A DNA stretch of 40,217 nt from Acidimicrobiales bacterium (GTDB taxonomy: Bacteria; Actinomycetota; Acidimicrobiia; Acidimicrobiales; Iamiaceae): assembly GCA_025463365.1 (NCBI GenBank), contig JAOBWM010000046.1, forward strand, positions 1-40,217, written 5' to 3'. The notes beneath the pieces were generated by a model that made no database searches, had not been told where the DNA came from, and saw only the letters and a program-made list of their open reading frames with translations. Both the position numbers and the translations under genes were made by a program. The first letter of the stretch is position 1. Each line of letters starts with the position of its first letter. Shown piece by piece: positions 25,159 to 38,207 of this stretch.

Positions 25159-27831
25159 TCAGCTGGCGCTGAGGCCGTCGACGATCGTCATCCGGGGCGG
25201 CCCGGCCATGCGGATGGTGGTGGCGGCGCCCACGCCGGCGAAGCGGCCGGGCGTGCAGGTCAACACGATGATCTGGCACTCGCGACCGGCGAGGGCGATG
25301 GCCGCACCCATCTGCGGAAGGCGGCCCGGGTCGGTCCAGCCGAGCGCGTCGTCGAACACGACCGGCGCGCCCCCGTCCGACGAGACGATCGACGCACACG
25401 CCAGGCGGGCGAGGAGGCCGAGCTGCTCGCGGGCGCCAGTGCTCAACTGGTCGAACTCGACGGTGATGCCGTCGACCGTGCGCCGTTCGATGCGGAGATC
25501 GGCGTCGAGCTCGATCTCGAGCGATTGGCCGAAGACGATCCGACCGAAGCGTTCGATGCGTTCCCGGAACGGCGCCAGGTAGCGGTTGCGGGTCTCGCTG
25601 CGGCGGGCATCGAAGGTCTCGTACAGCAGGCGGGCGGCGGCGGCACGGGCCTCGATGGCGGCGAGTGCTCGCTGGAGGTGGTCGCGGGCCGTCAGGGCGT
25701 CGTCGAGCTCGCGGGCGAGGCCCTTCTCGCCGTCGTGCTCGAGGCCGAGCTGGACCCGCTGGATGGCGAGGCGGTTGCGGGCGATGGCGTCCGCGCCTCG
25801 CTGGCGCGCCTCGGCGGCGTTGGTGACCTGCGCGTCGAGGCTCTCGGGATCCTCGGCGGCGAGCGCCGACTCGGCTGACGCGAGGGCCCGGGTGGCCTCG
25901 CCCCGGGCCGCCTCGGCCCCCGTGAGCGCGGTGGCGAGGGCGTCGTCGGACAGTTGGGCCTGGTCGCGCTCGAGGGCGGCGAGGTCGCCGGCGAGGGTGG
26001 CGGCCTCGTGCTCGACCGTGGTGGCGAGGCCCTTGTCGTCGATCTCGGCGGCGTTGCGTTCGGTGGCGCGGGCCGTGATGGCGGCCGCGGCTTCGGCCAG
26101 GCGGGCGCGGCAGGCACCGAGCGCGGCTTCTGCCTCGCGAGCGGCGGCTTGGGCCAGGTCGTGATCGGCCGGGATCGAGGGCTCGGGTGCTCGCTCGGAT
26201 GCGTAGCCCGCGACCTTGGTGGCCAGCCGCTCGGCCTTCTGGGCGAGGGCCTCGATGGTGAGATCCCGCAGGTTGTCGCGGATCCGGGCGGCCGCTTCTT
26301 GGGTGGTCCGCTCGGCCTCGGCCCGGGCTGCGGCGACGTGGCGCGCCTGGGCGAGGTCCGCGACCCCGGCGGTGGCGCACAGGTGGGCCAGCTCGGCGCG
26401 CGCCGCCAGCACGCGCTCGGCCCGGGCGCGGTCCTCGGCGCCGGCCTGGATCGAGAGCGACACCACGCCGGGCACGACCAGGTCGGTCGAGGACGTGAGG
26501 CGCACCTCGTGGGCGTCGCCCTCGGCGAGCGCCACGGCGACGCCATCGATCTCGACCTTGGTGGGGGCCAGCGCGCTGATCGACACGCTGGCGGCGCCAG
26601 CTTCGGCGGCGGCCTCGGCCCGCACGACCTCGAGCTCGGCCTGCTCGATGCGGGCCAGGAGTGGGCCATCGACATGGGCGCCATCGAGGACCGCGGCCGC
26701 GACCCGGAGGGCCTCTTCGTCGGTGACGACCCGCTCGTGGCGCTCCCGGAGCTGCGCGACCTCGATCTCCTGGCGGCGGTGCTCGCTGTCGCGGCTGGCC
26801 CGCAGGTGCACGGCTTCGGCCTCGACGACGGCCGCCAGGTCCGCGTCATGCGCGGCGATGGCGTCTCGGTGGTGCGCCTCAGCCGCGGCGCGGGCGGGGG
26901 CGGCCTGGGACACGGCGCGCTCGGCGGCGGCGAGCCGGTCGCGGCTCCGGGTGAGCCGCCCGGCCAGTTCGAGGCGGCGCTCGGCCACGCTGCACCACTT
27001 CTCGTGCTCGGATGCCGCCACCTGGTGGCGGGAGGCGAGCTGCTCGCGCTCGGCTCGCAGGGTGGCGACGACCTGCGCCCGCGACCGGAGGTCGGCGGCG
27101 GCGCGCTCGAGGCCCTCCTGGCGGGCGGCCAGTTCGGTGGTCTCGGTCGCGAGGCGGGCGGCCTCGACCACCTGCTGATCCAGCACGGCGATCGCCGCGG
27201 TGGCTGCCGCGGCCCGTTCCTCGGCTGCGACGAGGCGCTCGGCCAGGTCCACGCGCAGGCCGCGCGGCCGCCAGGTGGCCGTGAAGTACTGGTCCCGTTC
27301 CGCGCTGATCCGGTCCCACAGGGCATCTTCCCGGTCGCCGGTGAGGTCCCCGCCGGCGGCCAGGTCGAGGGCTCGTCCGAGGGACGGGAGGGCGAAGCTC
27401 GCCTGGTTGAGGCCACCGCCCTGCTCGAGGCGCAGGGCCTGCCAGAGGCCGCGGTCCAGCGTCTCGTCCAAGATGGCGTCGACCCGGTCGTGAGCATCGC
27501 GCCCGGTCAGCTGCACACGCTCGGGCTCGAGGATCGTGAGCTCGGTGCTCGGCCGCTTGAGCCACCGCTTGGCGTACACGAGGCGGTACGGGCCGGTGCT
27601 GAACTCGAGGCTGACCTCGGGCCCGACGTCTCGACCCACGGGCTGGAGGGCGCGGATCCGGGCCTTCTTGCTCGAGTCCGTCTCCTCGAGGATGAGGCGG
27701 ACCGCGTCCGCGACCGAGGACTTCCCGACCTCGTTGTCGCCCTCGATGATCGTGACGCCCGTGGGATCGAGGGCGATGTCAGCCTGCTGCACGCCGCGGA
27801 AGTTGCGGATCGCGATGCGGTGGATCCTCAT
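25159..27831 (-). CDS. SMC/Rad50-like AAA ATPase (SbcC/YhaN-type)
   Basis: An 890-residue partner of the adjoining phosphoesterase, expected to form an Mre11-Rad50/SbcDC-like complex acting on DNA ends. The N terminus IHRIAIRNFRGVQQ leads to Walker A GDNEVGKSS (31-39). Two long Ala/Glu/Arg-rich coiled coils (about 170-400 and 480-750) flank a compact insert with beta character (ASVSISALAPTKVEIDGVAV onward). The C-terminal head has the ABC signature LSTGAREQLGLLARLA, Walker B PVVFDDALGW and ECQIIVLTCTPGRF. No CxxC zinc hook is present at the coiled-coil apex, unlike SbcC or Rad50; dimerisation may use the insert, as in YhaN-like proteins. ATG 27831 overlaps the phosphoesterase stop (ATGA). In-frame upstream sequence belongs to a shadow of that gene. 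Confidence 0.87.
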   Translation of the reverse strand: MRIHRIAIRNFRGVQQADIALDPTGVTIIEGDNEVGKSSVADAVRLILEETDSSKKARIRALQPVGRDVGPEVSLEFSTGPYRLVYAKRWLKRPSTELTILEPERVQLTGRDAHDRVDAILDETLDRGLWQALRLEQGGGLNQASFALPSLGRALDLAAGGDLTGDREDALWDRISAERDQYFTATWRPRGLRVDLAERLVAAEERAAAATAAIAVLDQQVVEAARLATETTELAARQEGLERAAADLRSRAQVVATLRAEREQLASRHQVAASEHEKWCSVAERRLELAGRLTRSRDRLAAAERAVSQAAPARAAAEAHHRDAIAAHDADLAAVVEAEAVHLRASRDSEHRRQEIEVAQLRERHERVVTDEEALRVAAAVLDGAHVDGPLLARIEQAELEVVRAEAAAEAGAASVSISALAPTKVEIDGVAVALAEGDAHEVRLTSSTDLVVPGVVSLSIQAGAEDRARAERVLAARAELAHLCATAGVADLAQARHVAAARAEAERTTQEAAARIRDNLRDLTIEALAQKAERLATKVAGYASERAPEPSIPADHDLAQAAAREAEAALGACRARLAEAAAAITARATERNAAEIDDKGLATTVEHEAATLAGDLAALERDQAQLSDDALATALTGAEAARGEATRALASAESALAAEDPESLDAQVTNAAEARQRGADAIARNRLAIQRVQLGLEHDGEKGLARELDDALTARDHLQRALAAIEARAAAARLLYETFDARRSETRNRYLAPFRERIERFGRIVFGQSLEIELDADLRIERRTVDGITVEFDQLSTGAREQLGLLARLACASIVSSDGGAPVVFDDALGWTDPGRLPQMGAAIALAGRECQIIVLTCTPGRFAGVGAATTIRMAGPPRMTIVDGLSAS

Positions 27832-28955
27832 GCCGCACCTCCGACAAGGCGGTACAGGAGCGCGAGGGCGTCCTGGGCGACGCGGCCGGCGGCGCCGTGG
27901 GCCTGGGCTTCCAGATCGGCGAGACCATCGCGGGCGAAGCCGGCGAGCTGCAACGCACCGAAGTCCCCGTCGGCGGGGAGGACCACGAGCTCGGAGCCAC
28001 GCTCCCATCGCTCGAGCGACGCGAAGAGCTGGGTGTGGTGGTCGAGCACCTCGTCGAGGGTGACCATGTCGACCAGGCCGAGCTGGCCGACGAGGCACAG
28101 GCGCACGATGGTGCGGGCCTTGTCGGCGAACCCGTCGAGGAACGTGTGGAGCGCCCCGACGTCGGCCGAGCCCGCCAGCTGGGCCTCGTGGGCGACGAAG
28201 TGCCAGGTGCCGACGGCGCGGGGCTCGGTGGTGACGGTCTCGTCCGCCAGGTCGACCAGCACCGCGTTGCCCGGATCGATCTCGCGGAAGTCGGTGGGCT
28301 CGGGAGCGCCGGCGTACCAGATGCGCCCGGTCGACCCGACCGACGTGGTGGAGTGCCGATCGCCGAGCGCCACGTAGGCGATCCGCCCGTCGGCCAGTGC
28401 GGCTTCGAGCGGTGCGGCGGCGATGGCGGCAGGGTTGGCGCGGTCCGCCGACAGCCAATCGATCGCGCCGTGGGCGACGACGATGCGAGCCGTGCCGTCG
28501 GCGGTGAGGCCGGCCATGGCATCGGCGACGAGGTCGCTGAGGGGGTGCTTGTGGTGCCAGGGGACGGCGAGCAGCTCGACCCCCGGGGCGACAGGCACGG
28601 GGCCGGGCGCGTCGAGCACCACGACGTTGGCCGGACGGTGGCGCAGGAACGTCGGTGACCGGAACACCGAGGCGGCATCGAGCGGGTCGTGGTTGCCGGG
28701 CAGGAGGTAGAAGGTCACCGCCGGTGTGGCCGCCATGGCATCGAGCGCCCGTTCCACGACCTGGCGCTCGACGTGGTTCGTCTCGAACACATCTCCCGCC
28801 ACGACCACGAAGCCGCAGCCCTCGGCGGCGGCCAGGGCCCCGATCGTGCGGATGACCTCCACGCGGGCCGCGGCGAACCGCGGCTGCGACTCGGACCCGA
28901 GGAAGTGCCGGGTCATGCCGAGTTGCCAGTCGGCGGTGTGGAGGAACCGAACCAT
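27828..28955 (-). CDS. SbcD/Mre11-like metallophosphoesterase (DNA-end nuclease subunit)
   Basis: A 375-residue calcineurin-fold phosphoesterase. Metal-binding motifs run in the usual order: FLHTADWQLG (His6, Asp9), VVAGDVFE, LLPGNHDP, VVAHGAID and LGDRHS, the last standing where GHxH is usual. Together with the coupled SMC-like ATPase it resembles SbcCD/Mre11-Rad50, which processes hairpins and blocked double-strand ends; the C-terminal third would carry the ATPase-contacting helices. The ATG at 28955 is 6 nt downstream of a TACTGT -10 box and lacks a Shine-Dalgarno, indicating leaderless translation. The upstream element is nearly identical to that before recC. The gene stands 74 bp after recD on the same strand, so DNA repair is supported by sequence and setting alike. 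Confidence 0.88.
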   Translation of the reverse strand: MVRFLHTADWQLGMTRHFLGSESQPRFAAARVEVIRTIGALAAAEGCGFVVVAGDVFETNHVERQVVERALDAMAATPAVTFYLLPGNHDPLDAASVFRSPTFLRHRPANVVVLDAPGPVPVAPGVELLAVPWHHKHPLSDLVADAMAGLTADGTARIVVAHGAIDWLSADRANPAAIAAAPLEAALADGRIAYVALGDRHSTTSVGSTGRIWYAGAPEPTDFREIDPGNAVLVDLADETVTTEPRAVGTWHFVAHEAQLAGSADVGALHTFLDGFADKARTIVRLCLVGQLGLVDMVTLDEVLDHHTQLFASLERWERGSELVVLPADGDFGALQLAGFARDGLADLEAQAHGAAGRVAQDALALLYRLVGGAA

Positions 28956-28961
28956 GGTTGG

Positions 28962-28994
28962 ACAGTACCGAGGGGGGGTGACAGCGAAGCTGGA
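28962..28994 (-). promoter_or_regulatory. RecA-NDp/PafBC-like promoter of the SbcD-Rad50-like operon
   Basis: Reading leftward: GCTTCGCTGTCACCC, an 8-nt spacer, then TACTGT (28967-28962), then 6 nt to the ATG at 28955. The 22 bp at 28973-28994 match the element before recC at 21 positions. CTGTCA-N-N8-TAnnnT resembles the mycobacterial LexA-independent damage promoter consensus TTGTCRGTG-N8-TAnnnT; the GTG part differs (CCC). Confidence 0.6.
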
Positions 28995-29029
28995 CCCCCG
29001 GTCAGGTCGGGCCGGTCAGGTGGGGGCGG

Positions 29030-30898
29030 TCAGCTCGACCACAGGCGCGGGCCCAGCCCCGACGCCCGGGCGACCGGTCGACCGACGGCGGTGCGCAGCG
29101 CCCCTTCGTCGGCCACCACGGTCAGGTGGGTCCGGGCCCGGGTCGCGGCGGTGTACAGGAGCTCGCGGGTGAGGATGGGTGACTCCCGGTGGGGCAGGGC
29201 CACGACCACGTGGGGGAACTCCGACCCCTGGCTCTTGTGGATGGTCATCGCCCACCACGTCTCGACCTCCCGGAGCCGCGCCGGCGCCAGGTACCGGACG
29301 CCGCCCGGATCCGGGAGGGCGACGACCATCGGAGCGCCGTCGGCACCGGCGACGGTGAGCCCGATGTCGCCGTTCGCCACCTTGTTGATCCGGTCGTTCA
29401 TCGTGACCAGGACGGGTCGCCCGACGTGCCAGGCGCGGCCTCGGTTGCCGTCGTAGAGCGGGACGCGGTCGGCGAGCGACCGCTCGATCCGCGTGGTCCA
29501 GTCGATCAGGCCGTTGGCACCCAGCCGGGTGGCCGCCAGCACCTTCACGCGGGTGGCGGCGTCCAGGCCGCGTTCGGCGTCCCCGGCGCGTGCCGCCTCG
29601 ACCACCTCCGCCGCCGTCCCCACGACGACGTCCTCCAGCGCGGCCATGGCCGACGCGTCGTCGGGCGCGACCCAGGTGAGGTCCGCCGCCGAGCCGCGCA
29701 GCAGCTCGATGGCCTCGTCGACGTGGCCGTCGCGGATCGCGTCGGCCAGCGCCTCGATGCCGGATCCGGCACCGAACCGATGGACACGACGCAGCACCGT
29801 GACCCGTCCGGCGAGGGGCCCGTCGACCACGGGCGCCAGGGGGAGCTGGCCGACCGGGGTCGGCGCGCCCGCCGGACCCACGACATCGCCCAGGACGGTG
29901 CCGGCCTCCACGCTCGCCAGCTGGTTCGGGTCCCCGACGAGCACCACCCGGGCCTGGGGGCGCACCGCATCGAGCAGGCGGGCCATGAGCGGGAGCGACA
30001 CCATGGACGTCTCGTCGACGACCACGAGGTCGTGCACGAGCGGGTCGCGGTGGTCGTGGCGGAACCGGCCACCGGGCCGCCAGCCGAGGAGGCGATGGAT
30101 CGTGGTGGCTTCGGCGCTCCGGAGGACCTCGGCCAGCCAGGGCTCGACCGCCCCCTCGGCCTCGGCATCGACGACGGCTTGGTGCACCGCCTCGGTCATG
30201 CGCGCCGCGGCCTTCCCGGTGGGGGCGGCCAGGGCGACGCTGAAGGATCGGCCCTCGGCCCTCGCCAGCTGGTGGGACGCGGCGACGAGGCGTGCGATCG
30301 TGCGGGTCTTGCCGGTTCCCGGCCCGCCGGCGATGACGGCGAGCGGGTGGCCCAGGGCCGATTCGGCGGCGCGCCGCTGGAGGTCCGGCCCGCCGGGCCC
30401 GTCGCGGGGAGGGAACAGCAAGTCGAGCACCGCACCGGTCCCCTCGCCGGGTGGCGCGGCGGCGGCCTCGGCTCGGGCCCGCAGCTGGTCGGCGACGGCC
30501 AGCTCGTACGCGAAGTACCGCTGCAGGTAGATGCGCGTGCCATCCCACACGAGCGGACGCACGGGACGGTGGTCCCAGGTGTCGGGCGCGGCCACGGCCG
30601 GGCTGGCGGCCAGGGTCCGGGCCCAGGCCTTCGGCTCGGGCCAGGGGAGGGTGGGAAGGTCCTCTTGGTGGCGGTCGAGCATGCGGAGCGCGACCTCCGC
30701 GAGCTCGATGCCGACGTGGCCGAGCCGCGGGGCGCGCGCCGCCACCGCCAGCGCGAGCAGCACGTCGGGATGCAGGCCCGGTTCGAGCCGGGCCACGGTT
30801 GCCGCGACCTGGATCTCGGTCGGCCCGAACACGCCCGCGCTGACGAAGGGGTCCAGCCCGGCGGTGGCCGCGGGGACCAGCGGCGCGAACGCCGTCAT
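29030..30898 (-). CDS. recD: Exodeoxyribonuclease V alpha subunit
   Basis: A 622-residue superfamily 1B helicase, the 5'-3' motor of RecBCD. The N-terminal 160 residues are the regulatory domain that contacts RecC. Motif I (Walker A) is GGPGTGKTRT (191-200), Ia-type SVALAAPTGKAAARM follows, Walker B is LVVVDETSMVSL, motif III VLVGDPNQLASVEAG and motif VI near the end is TRELLYTAATRAR. WAMTIHKSQGSEFPHVV is motif V. All are intact, so an active translocase is expected. ATG 30898 overlaps the recB stop by 4 nt (ATGA). It is the last gene of a recC-recB-recD operon, an order shared with other actinobacteria. Length is typical. Confidence 0.95.
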   Translation of the reverse strand: MTAFAPLVPAATAGLDPFVSAGVFGPTEIQVAATVARLEPGLHPDVLLALAVAARAPRLGHVGIELAEVALRMLDRHQEDLPTLPWPEPKAWARTLAASPAVAAPDTWDHRPVRPLVWDGTRIYLQRYFAYELAVADQLRARAEAAAAPPGEGTGAVLDLLFPPRDGPGGPDLQRRAAESALGHPLAVIAGGPGTGKTRTIARLVAASHQLARAEGRSFSVALAAPTGKAAARMTEAVHQAVVDAEAEGAVEPWLAEVLRSAEATTIHRLLGWRPGGRFRHDHRDPLVHDLVVVDETSMVSLPLMARLLDAVRPQARVVLVGDPNQLASVEAGTVLGDVVGPAGAPTPVGQLPLAPVVDGPLAGRVTVLRRVHRFGAGSGIEALADAIRDGHVDEAIELLRGSAADLTWVAPDDASAMAALEDVVVGTAAEVVEAARAGDAERGLDAATRVKVLAATRLGANGLIDWTTRIERSLADRVPLYDGNRGRAWHVGRPVLVTMNDRINKVANGDIGLTVAGADGAPMVVALPDPGGVRYLAPARLREVETWWAMTIHKSQGSEFPHVVVALPHRESPILTRELLYTAATRARTHLTVVADEGALRTAVGRPVARASGLGPRLWSS

Positions 30899-33800
30899 GC
30901 CGGTGCCTCTGCGAGCAGCTGACCGTCGAGGAGGGCGCTGAGGGCATCGACGGCTCCGGCCGGGATCGGCCAGGAGCACACGCCGTGCGGCACGTCGCCG
31001 GCGACGGCGACCTTCGGCCCGGCCATGCCCCGCAGGAAGAGGTAGGCGGCGCCGCCGAGGTGCACCTCGGGGCGATAGTCGGGAAGGCGCCATCGCAGGT
31101 AGCGGTGGAGGGCGACCGAGTACAGCAGGGCCTGGAGCGGGTAGTGGTGGTGGGCCATGGCCTCGGCGATGCGGGCCGGCGAGTAGTCGTCGGGGCCGGG
31201 GACGCGGCCGCGCTCGTGCAGCCGGTTGGTCTTGTAGTCGACGATCACGAAGCGCGGCTCGCCCGACGGCGTCTGCACCCGCAGGACCACGTCGATCGAC
31301 CCGGTGAGGTGGCCGGCCAGGTCGACGCCGAACGCGCCGGCGGCCAGCTCGGTCGCCCAGGGCCGGAACGGATCCGTGGGATCGAGGTGGTCGAGCAGGA
31401 CCCGCCCGATGTCGCGGTCGGTGGCGACGTGACCGGCCTGGCCGAGGTGCAGCTCGAAGGAGAGCTCGTCGAGCCGGTCGCGGCGGCCGAGGTCACGGAG
31501 GCGCCGACCCTCGAACAGGGGACCGAGGGGAGATTCGACGGCCGTGCGCAGGCCGTCGACCAGCAGGGCGCGACCGGATTCGCGGGGCTCATCGGGGGCG
31601 GATCCCTCCCGGATCGGCGTCAGGTCGAACGCGCGCCACGACAGCTGACGCCCGATCTCGTCGGAGATGGTGGTTGCGAGGTCCGCCACGGTGAAGTCGA
31701 CGTGCTCGAGCACGGCGTGGACCATCGTGCCGAAGTCGGCTCCGGCCGGGAGCCAGACGAGCGGAGAGACCGCTCCGGTCGCCCCGCTGACCTCGGCCGC
31801 GGCGCGGTCGAGGTCGATCTCGACGCCTTCGTCGTCGTCGGGTTGGTCGACGGGTGCCTGCTCGTCCGCGCCTCCCGGGACGTCTTCGTCAGCCGGCTCG
31901 TCGACGTCGTGGCGGTGCGACTGGTCGGCCTGCGCCGTGATGGCGGTGAACGACCAGCGGCGGTGGCTGCGATCGAACTCCCGCGTGAGCTCGGCGGCGA
32001 CGAGCGCCGCGTCCTCGGGTGCCTTGCGGGGATCCAGCCAGGGCGCCGGCTTCGGTCCCGGGCGGCCGATGGTGGCCACCGCGAGCCGGCCGTCGCCCGC
32101 GTCGGCGACCAGCGGGGCCAGCGCCGCGGCGGCGTCGGCATCGCTCGGCAGCCCGATCGCGGCGGCCGTGAACCGATCGGGGTCGATGGTCCCGTCGCCT
32201 CCACGAGCGAACAGGACCTTGGCCAGTGCGCTCTTCTCGCTGCCCGTGCAGCGGCTCCACCACACGATGGTCTGGTGCTTGGCCCGGGTGAGGGCCACGT
32301 AGAGGACCCGGAGGTCCTCGCCCGCCCGCTCGCGGTGGGCCAGTGCCTTGCGGGCCTTGGCCTGTGCCGGATCGGGCCACCGGTCACCCGCGGCCAGGTC
32401 GTAGGCCCGCTCCTGGAGATCGGGGTGTTGGTACACGACCGGTGTGTCGGCCTTTGGTTGGCGCCACAGCGTGGGACAGCACGTGATCGGGAACTCGAGG
32501 CCCTTCGCCACCCACACGGTCATCAGCTGGACCGCCTCGGCCTCGGACTCGACGCGGCGCGACGCGACGTTGCCGTCGAACTCGGTCTCCGGGTCGGCAT
32601 CGGGGTCGACGTCGAGCACGGCCTGCAACGCCGCGATGCCCACCCGCGGGCTGGCGACCTCGGTCTGGAACAGCTCGGCGATGTGCTCGATGTCGGTGAG
32701 GCACCGGTCGCCGTCGGGCCGGGCGAGGACGGTTGCCACCACGTCGGTGTCGGCCCACACCCGCCGCAGCAGGTCGCCGACGGTGCCGCGGGCGAGCTCG
32801 TCGGCCCAGCTGTGCAGCCGGTCCTGGAGGTCGGCGAGGTCGGTGTCGGCGGCGGCGGCCACCCACGCCGCGGACCGACCGCCGAACCACGAGAGCGCGA
32901 AGGTCCGCGCCCGTGCCGGATCCGACGGGAGGGCGACGGCTTCGAGCAGCCAGCGCCACTGGGTGGCGGCGGGCGACGCCAGGACGCTCGAACCGCGGCG
33001 GAGCACGGCGGGCACGCCCTGCTCGAGGAGCCGGGCGTGGATGGCGTCGGCCTCGTTGGCGTTCTTGACCAGGACGGCGATGTCCGATGGGCGCACGGCC
33101 CGATCGGTGGCCCCGTCGGCATCGGGGTCGGTGGGGATCCGTCCGGCATCCAGGAGGCCCCGGACCTCGCGCACGAGGTCCGCGTAGATCGCTGCCTCAG
33201 CCGCGGCCACGACGATCTGGCCGGACTTGATGCGGTTGAGGTCCGGGTCCAGCGCGAGTCGCAACGACAGCGCCGGCAGGGGGCCGTCGGCCCCGACCAG
33301 CCGGCGATCCGCCTGCGCGCTCCCGGCCTCGACCGGCGTGAACGCGATCGACCCGTCTCCGAACGTGGCCCCCCGCAAGAACGTGTCGAGCGCCCGGAGG
33401 GCCGCGCCGTCCGATCGGTAGTTGGTGCCCAACGAGCGGATGTCGGCATCGCCGGACACGGCCTCGAGGTAGGTGTGGATGTTGGCGCCTCGGAAGGCGT
33501 AGATGGCCTGCTTGGGGTCGCCGACGAGCACCAGCGATGGCGACGGGGCGAGGGCGGTCCCCGGTTCGGCGAACAGGGTGCGGAAGATCGCCCACTGCAC
33601 CGGGTCGGTGTCCTGGAACTCGTCGATCAGCGCCACGCGGAACCGGTCGCGGAGGCCCGCCACCGCCCCGCCGCTCCCGGGTCCCTGCAAGGCGTCGCGC
33701 AGGTGCGTCAGGAGGTCGGCGAACGAGCGGGTCCCGCTGCGGCGGCGTTGCAGGTGGATCTGGCGGACGGATCGCTCGACGAGCTCGCGCAAGATGCCGT

Positions 33801-34431
33801 CGGCCTCGGACTGCCCGGGTTCGGCGGGGCCCGGCACCAGGACGAGGTCAGGCATGCCGAGCACCGCGTTGGTGGCAGCCACGAGGTCCTTGAGCTTCGG
33901 GAGCACCTCCGGGGCGGTTCCGGCCACCGCCTCGGCTGCGAGGGCGTCGGCGCAGATCTCCCGGGCGAGGTCCCAGTCGTCGTTGGCCAACGTGAGGTCG
34001 GGGTCGGCCCCGGCGGCCGCGCCCAGGGTGCCGAGCACCTGGCCGGCGAACCCGTGGATGGTCGCGATCGTGGCGGCATCGAACTCGGTGACCGCCCGCT
34101 CCAGGCGGAGACGGCGCTCCGACACCACGGCCGGCGACGCCGCGGCCAGGTGGACGAGGAGGGGATCGGAGGTGGCGGGCGGTGCCGTCGAGGCCAGGTG
34201 GGCGGCGGCTTCGACGAACCGGTCGCGGACCCGGGCCCGCAGCTCGGTGGTGGCGGCCCGGGTGAAGGTGACGACGAGCAGCTGGCTCGGGCTGATGCCG
34301 GCCTCGGCGACGTAGCGCGTGGCGAGCGCGGCGAGCGTGAAGGTCTTGCCCGTCCCGGCGGATGCCTCGATGGCCATGCGGCCTCGAGGGAGGGGATCGA
34401 GCAGCCGGAACGGGGTTGGGGCGGTGCTCAT
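30895..34431 (-). CDS. recB: Exodeoxyribonuclease V beta subunit (helicase-nuclease)
   Basis: An 1178-residue superfamily 1A helicase with a C-terminal nuclease domain, the 3'-5' motor and only nuclease of RecBCD. Walker A is ASAGTGKTF (23-31), TFTRAATTELRARV is motif Ia, ALIDEFQDTDPVQW motif II, LVGDPKQAIYAFRGA motif III, and RVLYVALTRAKHQTI motif VI. The nuclease domain from about 900 shows GADFGTMVHAVLEH, then GSIDVVLRVQ and VIVDYKTN, i.e. the metal-binding Asp, Asp-Tyr-Lys catalytic set, so cleavage should be active. An acidic linker (DEPADEDVPGGADEQAPVD) separates motor and nuclease. ATG 34431 overlaps the recC stop (ATGA) and its own stop overlaps recD, so the three subunits are translationally coupled. 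Confidence 0.95.
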   Translation of the reverse strand: MSTAPTPFRLLDPLPRGRMAIEASAGTGKTFTLAALATRYVAEAGISPSQLLVVTFTRAATTELRARVRDRFVEAAAHLASTAPPATSDPLLVHLAAASPAVVSERRLRLERAVTEFDAATIATIHGFAGQVLGTLGAAAGADPDLTLANDDWDLAREICADALAAEAVAGTAPEVLPKLKDLVAATNAVLGMPDLVLVPGPAEPGQSEADGILRELVERSVRQIHLQRRRSGTRSFADLLTHLRDALQGPGSGGAVAGLRDRFRVALIDEFQDTDPVQWAIFRTLFAEPGTALAPSPSLVLVGDPKQAIYAFRGANIHTYLEAVSGDADIRSLGTNYRSDGAALRALDTFLRGATFGDGSIAFTPVEAGSAQADRRLVGADGPLPALSLRLALDPDLNRIKSGQIVVAAAEAAIYADLVREVRGLLDAGRIPTDPDADGATDRAVRPSDIAVLVKNANEADAIHARLLEQGVPAVLRRGSSVLASPAATQWRWLLEAVALPSDPARARTFALSWFGGRSAAWVAAAADTDLADLQDRLHSWADELARGTVGDLLRRVWADTDVVATVLARPDGDRCLTDIEHIAELFQTEVASPRVGIAALQAVLDVDPDADPETEFDGNVASRRVESEAEAVQLMTVWVAKGLEFPITCCPTLWRQPKADTPVVYQHPDLQERAYDLAAGDRWPDPAQAKARKALAHRERAGEDLRVLYVALTRAKHQTIVWWSRCTGSEKSALAKVLFARGGDGTIDPDRFTAAAIGLPSDADAAAALAPLVADAGDGRLAVATIGRPGPKPAPWLDPRKAPEDAALVAAELTREFDRSHRRWSFTAITAQADQSHRHDVDEPADEDVPGGADEQAPVDQPDDDEGVEIDLDRAAAEVSGATGAVSPLVWLPAGADFGTMVHAVLEHVDFTVADLATTISDEIGRQLSWRAFDLTPIREGSAPDEPRESGRALLVDGLRTAVESPLGPLFEGRRLRDLGRRDRLDELSFELHLGQAGHVATDRDIGRVLLDHLDPTDPFRPWATELAAGAFGVDLAGHLTGSIDVVLRVQTPSGEPRFVIVDYKTNRLHERGRVPGPDDYSPARIAEAMAHHHYPLQALLYSVALHRYLRWRLPDYRPEVHLGGAAYLFLRGMAGPKVAVAGDVPHGVCSWPIPAGAVDALSALLDGQLLAEAPA

Positions 34432-37400
34432 GTGGAGGCTCGATCCCGGTCGGCGTCGATCGACGCGAGGTCCAGCGACGTCTCGTTGACGGTGCCCCAG
34501 AGGTGGTGCGCGTAGCGCTCGGCCCGGCCACCCGGTCCAGGTGGATCGTGCGGTTCGGCGGGGATCGCCAGCACGTCGTCGTAGTCGAGGTCGCCGTAGG
34601 CCACGGCGACGTGGCGGTCCTCGCGGTCCGCGGGGAACTTGAAGCCGACCCAGCAGCTGGGTGCGGCCTTGCCGAGGAACAGCGCCTCGGTGAGCGTGGG
34701 GAAGATCGGCAGGGCTTCCGTCCGGCTGCGGCGGAGCAGGTCGGCGGCCAGCGTCAAGCCGTCGGCTGCCGCGGCGGCGCGCTCCGCGGCGCTCGTCCCT
34801 GCGACGACCAGGTCCCGCGTCACCGGACCGCGGGTGTCGTGGTTCACCACCACGGATCGCCACGAGCCCGTCGGGTCCTGGGCCGTCAGCGCCAGAAGGT
34901 CGAGCCACGCGGCGAGGTGGTACTTGGCCTTGATGCGTCCGAAGCCGATGCGCGCCGGTCCGTGGTCCGGGCCGCCGAGGCGACCGGAGACGGTGCCGAC
35001 GACCCGGGTGCCGTCGGGGAGGATGACGTCGATGGGGTGGAGGTCGGGCCGGCCGCGCCGCACCCCGAGCGAATCCGCCGCGGCCAGGAGGCCCGCCACC
35101 CGCTCGTCGAGCTCGCGGGCCTTCGCGGTGCCGAGCGTCCCCGGTGGCAGGGCGCCCAGGGCGGCCTCCATGGCGAGCTGGTCGTGGAGATCGGCTCCGT
35201 CCTGCGTGGCGTGGAGCAGCCGATCACCGATCTTCCACTGCTCGAGCTCGACGACCTCGACCGGCAGGCGGGTGGCCGGCGCCTCCTCGGTGAACGGCAA
35301 CCTGATCTGCAGGCGCGCGTCGAGGAATGCCTTGATCGGGTGGGCGATGGTGGCGTGGAGGTCGCTGAGGTCGATGACCTCCTCCCGGGTGCCGGCCAGC
35401 GGCGCGGCCAGGAACGGTTCGCGGTGCCGGGTCCGCGACCGGCGGGCCGCGGCACCGGCTCGGGCCCGTGGATCGAAGCTCCACGGCCCGCTCCCGACCA
35501 AGGCGGCCGGGACGAAGCAGCGGTCGTCGAACGCTTGGCGCGGGTGGGCGACCTCGATCGGTTGGTCCCCCTCGGCGAACGTGCCTGGGAGGACGGTGGC
35601 GGCGACCGCGTCTTGGAGCTCGGCGACGACCACGGCCGGCGGGATCACCTGGTTGGTGCGGAGGTCGTGGCCCTCTCGCACCACCACCAGGTGCGAGCCC
35701 GCCGCCAGCACGGCTTCGAGCACGGCCTGGCGTCCCTCGCCCCGAGGGTCGCGGTCGCCGATCTGGGGCGACGCGGCCGCGAGGTCGTCCCCGTCGACCG
35801 AGCCCGTGGCGAAGGCCGCCTGGTCCATGCCCAGGAGGCAGACGACCCGGTGCGGAACCCATCGCAGGGATTCGAGCGAGGTGAAGGTGATGCCGCCCCG
35901 GAAGAAGTCGGGTCGTCCTGGCGCGCTCACCAGGCGCGGGGCCAGGAGCCGCCGCAGGTCGGCGAAGGTGAGCGGTACCTCCGAGGGCTTCCCCTCGGCT
36001 CCGGCCTCGGCCACGACATCGACGAGGACCTTGGCCAGCACCTCGGCATGCCACGCGTCGGCAGGTGCCGGCGCGAGGACGGCGGTGGCCAGCTCGGCGA
36101 GCAGCGCGATCCACTCGGCGACCGGTCGCGCTTGGGCGGTGGCATCGGCCAGACCGCCGAGGCGCGCCATGACGTCGGCGAGCCGTCCCACCAGGTCGGC
36201 CTCGTCTCCCTCGACGCCGAGCGGGACGACCCCGCCGACGCTGAAGGCGAGCTCGTCGTCGGCGACGGCGATCCCGATCAGGAGCCGATCCAGCCCCGCC
36301 TGCCAGGTGTTGGTGGCGAGGGACGCCGGCACGCCGAACGGCTCTCGGCCCGCGGCATCGAGCCCCCAGCGGATGTTCAGCGCCGATGTCCAGGTGCCGA
36401 TCCGGGCGAGGTCGTCGTCATCGAACCGGTACCGACGGCGCAGCGCGGGCAGGGCCAGCAGATCCAACGTGGTCGGCGCGTCGAACCGCCCCGTCACCGC
36501 GTCCAGGATCGTGGCCAGACCGGCGATCACGGTGTTCGCCCCACGGATCGAGCGGTCGGCCACCCGGTAGCGAAGGGGCGGCGCTCCCCCCGCCGGTGGC
36601 CCGGGCCGGCCCGCACTGGGGCCGAAGGCGGATTCGATGAGCGTGGTGAACCGCTCGACCCGCGGGCAGGCGACGAGGATGTCCTCCTCGCGCAGCGATG
36701 GGTCGGCCTCCAGCAGGTGCAGCACCGCGTCGCGGAGCACCTCGACCTGCCGGGCCGGGCCGTGGGTGGCGTGGAACTGGATGGTCCGGTCGCCCGGCTG
36801 GAGGGCGTGCCCGCCGCTCGGCGCCCGCCCGGCCCGCAGGTCGGATTGCAGGCGCTCGAGGAGCGTGGGTGCGGCCGGTTCCTCCGGTGATGGGCACCAC
36901 GAGGCCGGCGGGATCCCGGCTCCGGCCAGCAGCACGGCCGTCTCGCGGGGGAGCCGGCCCCACGAGCGCAGGAGGGGATGGGTCACGACCTCCGCCGGCG
37001 GGTCCTCGATGGCGCCCACCCGCGTCCGCTCGCGGACCCGGCGGCTCGTCGCCGGCGAGGGATCGAGCAGGCACAGGTGCACGTCTCGCGACACCGCGAC
37101 CGCCTGCACGAGGTCCAAGAAGGACTGCCCGCCCGGCAGGACCGGGAAGCCGAACAGCGAGAGGCGCGACGGAAGGTCGGGGATTGCGAGGGTCCCTGCG
37201 GCGAGGCCGGCCAAGATGCCGGGAAGTGCCTCGGGCGGGCTCGCGACCCCGATGTGGCGCCGCGCCGTTCGCCACAGCTCGGGCTGCCATCGGTGGTGCG
37301 CCGCGAGCGGCGCGCCGATGCCATCGACGTCACGGCCCGCGGCCCAGGCCCGCACCATGTCGGGCCGGTGCACGTGGTAGCGGTCGAACAGGTCGGCGAT

Positions 37401-37787
37401 CCGGCGGGCCCTCGCGAACGCCGGGACGTCTGGCGACGGGTGGCCGGCCCCGGCCGCGGGCTGGGAGGCCAGGACCTCGAGGATGGGCCACGCCAGCCGC
37501 TCGACCGACCAGGGATCGCCGTCGACCTCGGGGCGGCCAGCGGCCAGCACCGACGTGCGCAGGGTTCCCGGGAACGCGTAGGTCAGGTTGGCCGCGACGC
37601 CGTCGCCTGATCCCGGTCCCGCCGCTCCGAGGCGGCGGGCGAGCTCCAGCGACAGCCACCGGCCCATCCCGAGCGTGGGGACGGCGATCCATTCGGGCTC
37701 GAGCGGATCGGCCGGGACCTCGGCCAGGACCGCGGCCAGGCGCTCAGCGAGGGGCAGGGCCCGATCGGCGGCGTGGAGGTGCAACAC
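34428..37787 (-). CDS. recC: Exodeoxyribonuclease V gamma subunit
   Basis: A 1119-residue scaffold subunit of RecBCD that splits the duplex and scans for the recombination hotspot. It has a degenerate SF1 helicase fold without Walker motifs, typical of RecC: N-terminal VPTLGMGRWLSLELARRLG, FGFPVLPGGQSFLDLVQAV, and a C-terminal inactive nuclease-like domain with RIGFGRIKAKYHLAAWLDLL. The start is reassigned here to GTG 37787. This gives LHLHAADRALPL right after the initiator, matching the MLxxxHSN-like N termini of RecC, and lies 7 nt after a TAGCTT -10 box. The upstream in-frame TTG at 37796 overlaps that -10 box and is unlikely to be in the mRNA. No Shine-Dalgarno is visible, so the message is probably leaderless. 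Confidence 0.92.
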   Translation of the reverse strand: MLHLHAADRALPLAERLAAVLAEVPADPLEPEWIAVPTLGMGRWLSLELARRLGAAGPGSGDGVAANLTYAFPGTLRTSVLAAGRPEVDGDPWSVERLAWPILEVLASQPAAGAGHPSPDVPAFARARRIADLFDRYHVHRPDMVRAWAAGRDVDGIGAPLAAHHRWQPELWRTARRHIGVASPPEALPGILAGLAAGTLAIPDLPSRLSLFGFPVLPGGQSFLDLVQAVAVSRDVHLCLLDPSPATSRRVRERTRVGAIEDPPAEVVTHPLLRSWGRLPRETAVLLAGAGIPPASWCPSPEEPAAPTLLERLQSDLRAGRAPSGGHALQPGDRTIQFHATHGPARQVEVLRDAVLHLLEADPSLREEDILVACPRVERFTTLIESAFGPSAGRPGPPAGGAPPLRYRVADRSIRGANTVIAGLATILDAVTGRFDAPTTLDLLALPALRRRYRFDDDDLARIGTWTSALNIRWGLDAAGREPFGVPASLATNTWQAGLDRLLIGIAVADDELAFSVGGVVPLGVEGDEADLVGRLADVMARLGGLADATAQARPVAEWIALLAELATAVLAPAPADAWHAEVLAKVLVDVVAEAGAEGKPSEVPLTFADLRRLLAPRLVSAPGRPDFFRGGITFTSLESLRWVPHRVVCLLGMDQAAFATGSVDGDDLAAASPQIGDRDPRGEGRQAVLEAVLAAGSHLVVVREGHDLRTNQVIPPAVVVAELQDAVAATVLPGTFAEGDQPIEVAHPRQAFDDRCFVPAALVGSGPWSFDPRARAGAAARRSRTRHREPFLAAPLAGTREEVIDLSDLHATIAHPIKAFLDARLQIRLPFTEEAPATRLPVEVVELEQWKIGDRLLHATQDGADLHDQLAMEAALGALPPGTLGTAKARELDERVAGLLAAADSLGVRRGRPDLHPIDVILPDGTRVVGTVSGRLGGPDHGPARIGFGRIKAKYHLAAWLDLLALTAQDPTGSWRSVVVNHDTRGPVTRDLVVAGTSAAERAAAAADGLTLAADLLRRSRTEALPIFPTLTEALFLGKAAPSCWVGFKFPADREDRHVAVAYGDLDYDDVLAIPAEPHDPPGPGGRAERYAHHLWGTVNETSLDLASIDADRDRAST

Positions 37788-37794
37788 GCTGCGC

Positions 37795-37827
37795 AAGCTA
37801 CCGGTGGGGGGTGACAGCGAAGCCGGA
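37795..37827 (-). promoter_or_regulatory. RecA-NDp/PafBC-like promoter of the recCBD operon
   Basis: Leftward: GCTTCGCTGTCACCC, an 8-nt spacer, TAGCTT (37800-37795), then 7 nt to the GTG at 37787. The stretch 37806-37827 differs from the element before the SbcD-like gene at one of 22 positions, although the -10 hexamers and spacers differ. Near-identity at two DNA-repair operons points to common regulation. Confidence 0.6.
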
Positions 37828-37853: not shown

Positions 37854-38207
37854 CTAGGTGTGATGGACCTGTGGTCCGCTGATCCGCCGGACCGTCATGC
37901 GGTTGCTCGTCAGGAAGAACCCGAGCGAGGCGGCCACGAGGACGGCGCACACCGTGAGGATCCGCCCGGTGGCGTTGACGATCAGCTGATCGCTCTTGCA
38001 GGTGAGCTCGATGCTGTTCGTGGTGTCGGGGTTGGCGTCCGACGGGACCGCACCGCGGTTGTCGAGGTGCTGGCCCGGGTCGCAGATCGGCTCGTTCAGG
38101 AACTGCACGCCGCGTGGCGCGAAGAAGCCGCAGACGAGGATGTACGGGACGGCGAGCAGCAGGAGCCGGCCGATCCACTTGGTGCTGGTCGCGCCGTACT
38201 TGCGCAT
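37854..38207 (-). CDS. Small membrane protein with two transmembrane helices (unknown function)
   Basis: A 117-residue protein I do not recognise. A positively charged start (MRKYGATSTKWIGR) leads into helix 1 (LLLLAVPYILVCGFFA, about 15-30). An extracytoplasmic loop of about 50 residues contains two cysteines (ICDPGQ, LTCKSD) that could form a disulfide. Helix 2 (ILTVCAVLVAASLGFFLTS, about 83-101) is followed by a short basic tail. By the positive-inside rule both ends are cytoplasmic. ATG 38207 lies 6 nt after TATCGT with no Shine-Dalgarno, suggesting a leaderless message. It precedes recC by 66 bp on the same strand, but recC has its own promoter, so a functional link is not implied. Confidence 0.7.
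   Translation of the reverse strand: MRKYGATSTKWIGRLLLLAVPYILVCGFFAPRGVQFLNEPICDPGQHLDNRGAVPSDANPDTTNSIELTCKSDQLIVNATGRILTVCAVLVAASLGFFLTSNRMTVRRISGPQVHHT

Follow-up and report, generated by a model that had tools for sequence, protein, structure and literature searches.

Matched putative PafBC-type promoters precede recC and sbcD in an uncultured Acidimicrobiia lineage

Results

Two DNA-repair operons of the window, i.e. the whole 40,217-nt stretch of DNA analysed, possess matched promoter elements, one before sbcD and one before recC. Both are very probably PafBC-dependent promoters of the RecA-NDp type, which would induce the repair genes behind them after DNA damage. This assignment, put forward in the initial annotation, is borne out by the geometry of the elements, a genome-wide enrichment of repair genes, a pafBC pair next to pafA, conservation at recC and SbcD orthologs and the classic form of the element in mycobacteria. 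Homology and context strongly suggest the regulator and the induction by damage, and from the same sources PafBC binding and the transcription starts are predicted. As judged from sequence, the element is no new signal but the form that the known PafBC promoter of mycobacteria takes in this lineage. So far examined almost exclusively in mycobacteria, the PafBC damage response would thereby extend to an uncultured lineage of Acidimicrobiia with a defined gene set.

Promoter elements and genes in the window

25159..27831, minus strand: SMC/Rad50-like ATPase, 890 aa; its start overlaps the sbcD stop
27828..28955, minus strand: SbcD-like calcineurin phosphoesterase, 375 aa; ATG 6 nt after the -10 box
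28962..28984, minus strand: putative RecA-NDp/PafBC-type promoter of the sbcD-SMC operon, CTGTCACCCCCCCTCGGTACTGT; TGTCA at about -26, TACTGT as -10
28985..28989, minus strand: CTTCG immediately 5' of CTGTC, within a weak TT-rich upstream preference
29030..31093, minus strand: recD; TIGR01447 above cut-off, frame as listed
30895..34908, minus strand: recB, UvrD-type helicase and PD-(D/E)XK nuclease; frame as listed, start provisional
34428..37787, minus strand: recC; GTG 7 nt after the -10 box, or TTG 3 nt later
37795..37817, minus strand: putative RecA-NDp/PafBC-type promoter of recC, CTGTCACCCCCCACCGGTAGCTT

The 22-mers TCCAGCTTCGCTGTCACCCCCC (minus strand, 28994-28973, before sbcD) and TCCGGCTTCGCTGTCACCCCCC (minus strand, 37827-37806, before recC) are identical at 21 of 22 positions with one mismatch, as initially annotated, and the geometry claimed for them, CTGTCACCC-N8-TAnnnT with a start codon 6-7 nt further on, is present at both promoters. 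The sbcD element reads CTGTCACCC-N8-TACTGT (28984-28962, minus strand), followed after 6 nt by the ATG at 28955, and the recC element CTGTCACCC-N8-TAGCTT (37817-37795, minus strand), followed after 7 nt by the GTG at 37787, with a TTG 3 nt beyond this GTG as alternative start. At both elements the TGTCR core lies about 26 nt before the predicted start and is connected to TAnnnT by a fixed spacing of 11 nt, which the orthologs keep exactly. Both lack the GTG that follows TGTCR in the original mycobacterial consensus and carry CCC instead; GTG is not defining for the wider promoter class, because this position varies among orthologs and a TGTCAC form has been published (PMC8151990). Both are true promoter elements. 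The TT-rich preference upstream is weak, with T in 22 of 38 genomic sites three bases before the base preceding TGTC.

The sbcD/recC pair is the only 22-mer pair with at most one mismatch in the window, and 3 of 20 Markov shuffles hold such a pair somewhere. The earlier view that chance is a poor explanation stands on the genome-wide and comparative data, whereas the 22-mer pair by itself is weak evidence. The argument is built on the position at repair promoters, the common geometry and those data. The 21/22 match could also stem from chance or from a promoter segment copied locally not long ago. This reading would fit the shuffles, and we consider it extremely improbable: the flanks outside the 22-mer differ, each element is separately conserved at the orthologous gene in relatives, and seven such elements occur genome-wide. 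Recent duplication was ruled out on the differing flanks and the separate conservation, and the orthologous promoters appear already largely to refute the duplication or chance reading as a whole.

The recC promoter occupies the interval that separates recC from the upstream open frame, which stops at 37854. RecD scores above its NCBIfam cut-off, RecC just below and RecB below. The 75 nt from the end of recD to the start of sbcD hold the sbcD promoter, which is thus internal to a cluster of five genes on the same strand. The sbcD mRNA is probably leaderless, since its ATG lies 6 nt after the -10 box. An SMC partner gene accompanies sbcD at 83 of 85 loci, and the SbcD-SMC pair may correspond to M. 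tuberculosis Rv1277-Rv1278. A literature search for Rv1277/Rv1278 with DNA damage or mitomycin returned nothing useful.

Proposed mechanism and known systems

TAnnnT would be the -10 box of the housekeeping sigma factor, and TGTCR, about 26 nt before the transcription start, the PafBC -26 element. Counting back from TAnnnT as -10 places TGTCR at about -28 to -24, which would agree with the published position. Once single-stranded DNA has activated it, mycobacterial PafBC becomes placed between the promoter DNA and sigma domain 4, the HTH of PafB binding the -26 motif and that of PafC binding sigma domain 4, and RNA polymerase initiates at this promoter (PMC11804915). Upon damage, PafBC would turn on recCBD and sbcD-SMC together with recA, radA, uvrB, ligA and others; in M. 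smegmatis, recBCD is already known to belong to the PafBC regulon (PMC8223512). Because the start codon is at or beside the predicted transcription start, leaderless mRNAs would result. A canonical -35/-10 promoter was ruled out, as a -35 element would have to lie much farther from the -10 box than TGTC does.

The mycobacterial RecA-independent consensus is tTGTCRgtg-N8-TAnnnT (PMC5656591), and the PafBC motifs of M. tuberculosis include TGTCGG, TGTCAG and TGTCAC-N10-TAnnnT (PMC8151990). The present elements share with the RecA-NDp/PafBC promoters of Mycobacterium the TGTCR, the fixed 11 nt to TAnnnT, the set of repair genes and the location of pafBC by pafA. They differ in mostly having two bases and a C- or G-run after TGTCR instead of GTG, in a G before TA, and in the usually leaderless arrangement, whereas in many mycobacteria the sbcD promoter lies 60-79 nt upstream of the gene. 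DriD-type activators of Caulobacter likewise comprise a WYL protein activated by single-stranded DNA (PMC12340889), but belong to another lineage and are single-gene regulators.

Conservation in relatives

The recC gene is patchy: 7 of 26 genomes possess it, this one among them. TGTCR-N11-TAnnnT occurs just before the recC start in five of the six other recC-bearing relatives (TGTCACAGGG, TGTCAGACCC, TGTCACAGGGG, TGTCACTCTCC and TGTCAGACCCCC), and the recC of the sixth (G019) is without the element. The SbcD orthologs of G001, G002 and G011 possess TGTCACCCCC or TGTCACAGGG. Among 80 SbcD loci from a scan of named genomes, 59 have a sense-strand element at most 130 nt upstream, compared with 11 matches on both strands in the rest of the 1.05 Mb searched. 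Mycobacterial SbcD orthologs carry the classic TTGTCGG...TACACT. The sbcD-SMC pair would thus be part of the regulon in mycobacteria and Acidimicrobiia alike. No element precedes sbcD in records named Chloroflexota, Dehalococcoidia, Nitrospirota and Zixibacteria; one record named Planctomycetota has it, and names of metagenome bins can be wrong.

A close SbcD ortholog is present in 6 of 26 genomes of the genus and order. The patchy distribution of recC and the SbcD-like gene suggests gain and loss of both repair modules.

Genome-wide distribution

The 4.31-Mb genome was scanned by motif search, with the reversed motif as control, and the stretches around matches were then fetched. CTGTCACCC-N8-TAnnnT gives seven matches in the whole genome (none with the reversed control) and TGTCR-N11-TAnnnT 40 (11 with the control). 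According to the gene following each of the 38 distinct sites, at least 13 precede genes for repair, recombination, nucleases or DNA translocases, namely recA, radA, uvrB, ligA, ftsK, recC, sbcD, three UvrD-type helicases, two RecB-like nucleases and a DUF222 protein. To these may be added, as candidates, a DNA methylase, an HD phosphohydrolase and a Uma2 nuclease; other sites precede genes with no evident repair link (leuS, tkt, a Band-7 protein). The TGTCACCC subset comprises nine sites by our own count, five of them at recC, sbcD, ligA, a RecB-like nuclease and the methylase. At 22 of the 38 sites a start codon follows 6-9 nt after the box; of random positions within these loci, 5.3% have one at that distance.

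The genome-wide check proposed in the initial annotation thus turned out in favour of repair genes, recA included. Neither ruvC nor uvrA, which it had named among the expected matches, has an element, even with one mismatch. The proposal of one damage regulon formed by recCBD and the SMC/phosphoesterase pair is sustained in that both would belong to it, but the regulon appears much wider than two operons.

The absence of the element from ruvC (L221) and uvrA (L222) is unlike the expectation from mycobacteria. Some loci behind elements possess features of their own. A UvrD-type helicase (L069:1-1824) probably contains an intein, because a Hint domain match (E 7e-8) lies right after the N-terminal helicase domain. 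Three contig ends (G000:C31, C67 and C88) hold near-identical copies of one promoter with the beginning of its gene, TGTCAGACCCCCTGGGTACGGT. They probably belong to a repeated gene family at which the assembly broke; it resembles DUF222/HNH by eye, and Pfam gave no confirmation. A small protein (L070:1424-2155) consists of near-perfect repeats of about 22 residues (DHSGALAAAQEMAKAMAFVDTV) and has no Pfam match.

LexA/SOS boxes

Perfect actinobacterial SOS boxes are located at most 80 nt from five element sites (L004, L009, L019, L066 and L072), the genes there being a RecB-like nuclease, radA, recA, a DUF222 gene and a probable HNH gene, the last assigned by eye. Dual LexA/PafBC control is suggested for these five sites by the proximity of box and element. 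The LexA operator palindrome CGAACRNRYGTTYG is absent from both the recC and the sbcD promoter of the window; the sbcD promoter has only a one-mismatch SOS half-site of the kind expected by chance. SOS control of the recC and sbcD operons was ruled out for lack of a LexA box. The LexA/SOS regulon of Actinobacteria is alike in that it controls, in this genome, recA and part of the same gene set, and differs in its palindromic operator and in acting by repression, whereas the PafBC type acts by activation.

The element might also be a strong constitutive promoter of the lineage, a housekeeping type with a TGTC element unrelated to DNA damage or PafBC. Several matches precede housekeeping genes such as leuS and tkt, and the start-codon spacing attests promoter status alone. 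We nevertheless regard a constitutive promoter as unlikely, in view of the strong enrichment for recA, uvrB, radA, ligA, recC and sbcD, the SOS boxes beside five sites, and the mycobacterial sbcD orthologs, which carry the same element in the form known to be PafBC-controlled.

The PafBC regulator

A search for pafBC, called for in the initial annotation, located a pafB-pafC pair beside pafA. The two genes overlap by one base and lie downstream of pafA, whose product passes its NCBIfam cut-off. The best solved matches of PafB and PafC are the M. smegmatis PafBC-polymerase structures and the PafBC of A. aurescens, and the PafB HTH residues FERDK are invariant across relatives. In a comparison of 60 genomes spread through the phylum, the motif excess over control is higher with PafC (median log2 ratio 0.98 in 38 genomes, against -0.30 in 14 without; p about 1e-4). 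This value takes no account of phylogeny or base composition, and in some PafC-positive genomes (G020, G074, G062) the excess is absent. Literature searches combining Acidimicrobi- with PafBC gave nothing useful.

The genome also contains two further WYL loci, and ClgR has been reported to recognise the mycobacterial P1 promoter (PMC5656591), so that ClgR or another WYL protein could read the element in place of PafBC. There is little probability of this, given that PafBC is the demonstrated activator of the promoter class in mycobacteria, that the pafB-pafC pair with its conserved HTH lies beside pafA, and that pafB stands head to head with sbcD in an Acidimicrobiaceae genome.

In that genome (Acidimicrobiaceae bacterium BP_115, G021:C6, L166:1973-4119) pafB and sbcD are about 95 nt apart, and the gap carries TGTTACACCCCC-TCGGTACCGT, one base off the element.

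Variation after TGTCR

The change of GTG to CCC had been proposed as a variant motif of the lineage or of the two operons. This does not hold: recC and sbcD orthologs alternate between CCC, CAG, GAC and CTC, and in the same genome recA has GAC after TGTCR and other sites GTG, GGG or CAC. CCC as a separate regulatory class was ruled out on the same exchanges at orthologous promoters. The published M. tuberculosis variant TGTCAC-N10-TAnnnT covers the present sites exactly (PMC8151990). The bases after TGTCR evidently drift among orthologs of the same gene, and CCC is, from these comparisons, not lineage-specific.

Among 148 distinct sites of relatives, positions 8-10 are CCC in 50 and GGG in 32; this total of 82 compares with 27.9 +/- 4.4 when columns are shuffled independently, a count inflated by shared ancestry. 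The test within this genome alone, which is not inflated in this way, gives CCC/GGG at 22 of 37 distinct sites against 9.2, reached in none of 20,000 shuffles. In mycobacterial sbcD promoters the excess does not reach significance (7 of 39 against 4.4), and neither does a run excess at positions 12-14. C-run and G-run look equivalent, because orthologous recC and sbcD promoters flip between them.

The PafBC promoter of Acidimicrobiia may, tentatively and with somewhat less than even probability, have a relaxed second half, in which TGTCR is followed by two bases and a G:C run of at least three in either direction, with PafB or the polymerase reading shape or stiffness. An interchangeable C-run and G-run after TGTCRNN is not reported in the literature searched. 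If true, the CCC/GGG interchange would suggest that DNA shape or stiffness is read and not base identity, which makes it a testable hint on how the activator reads its promoter.
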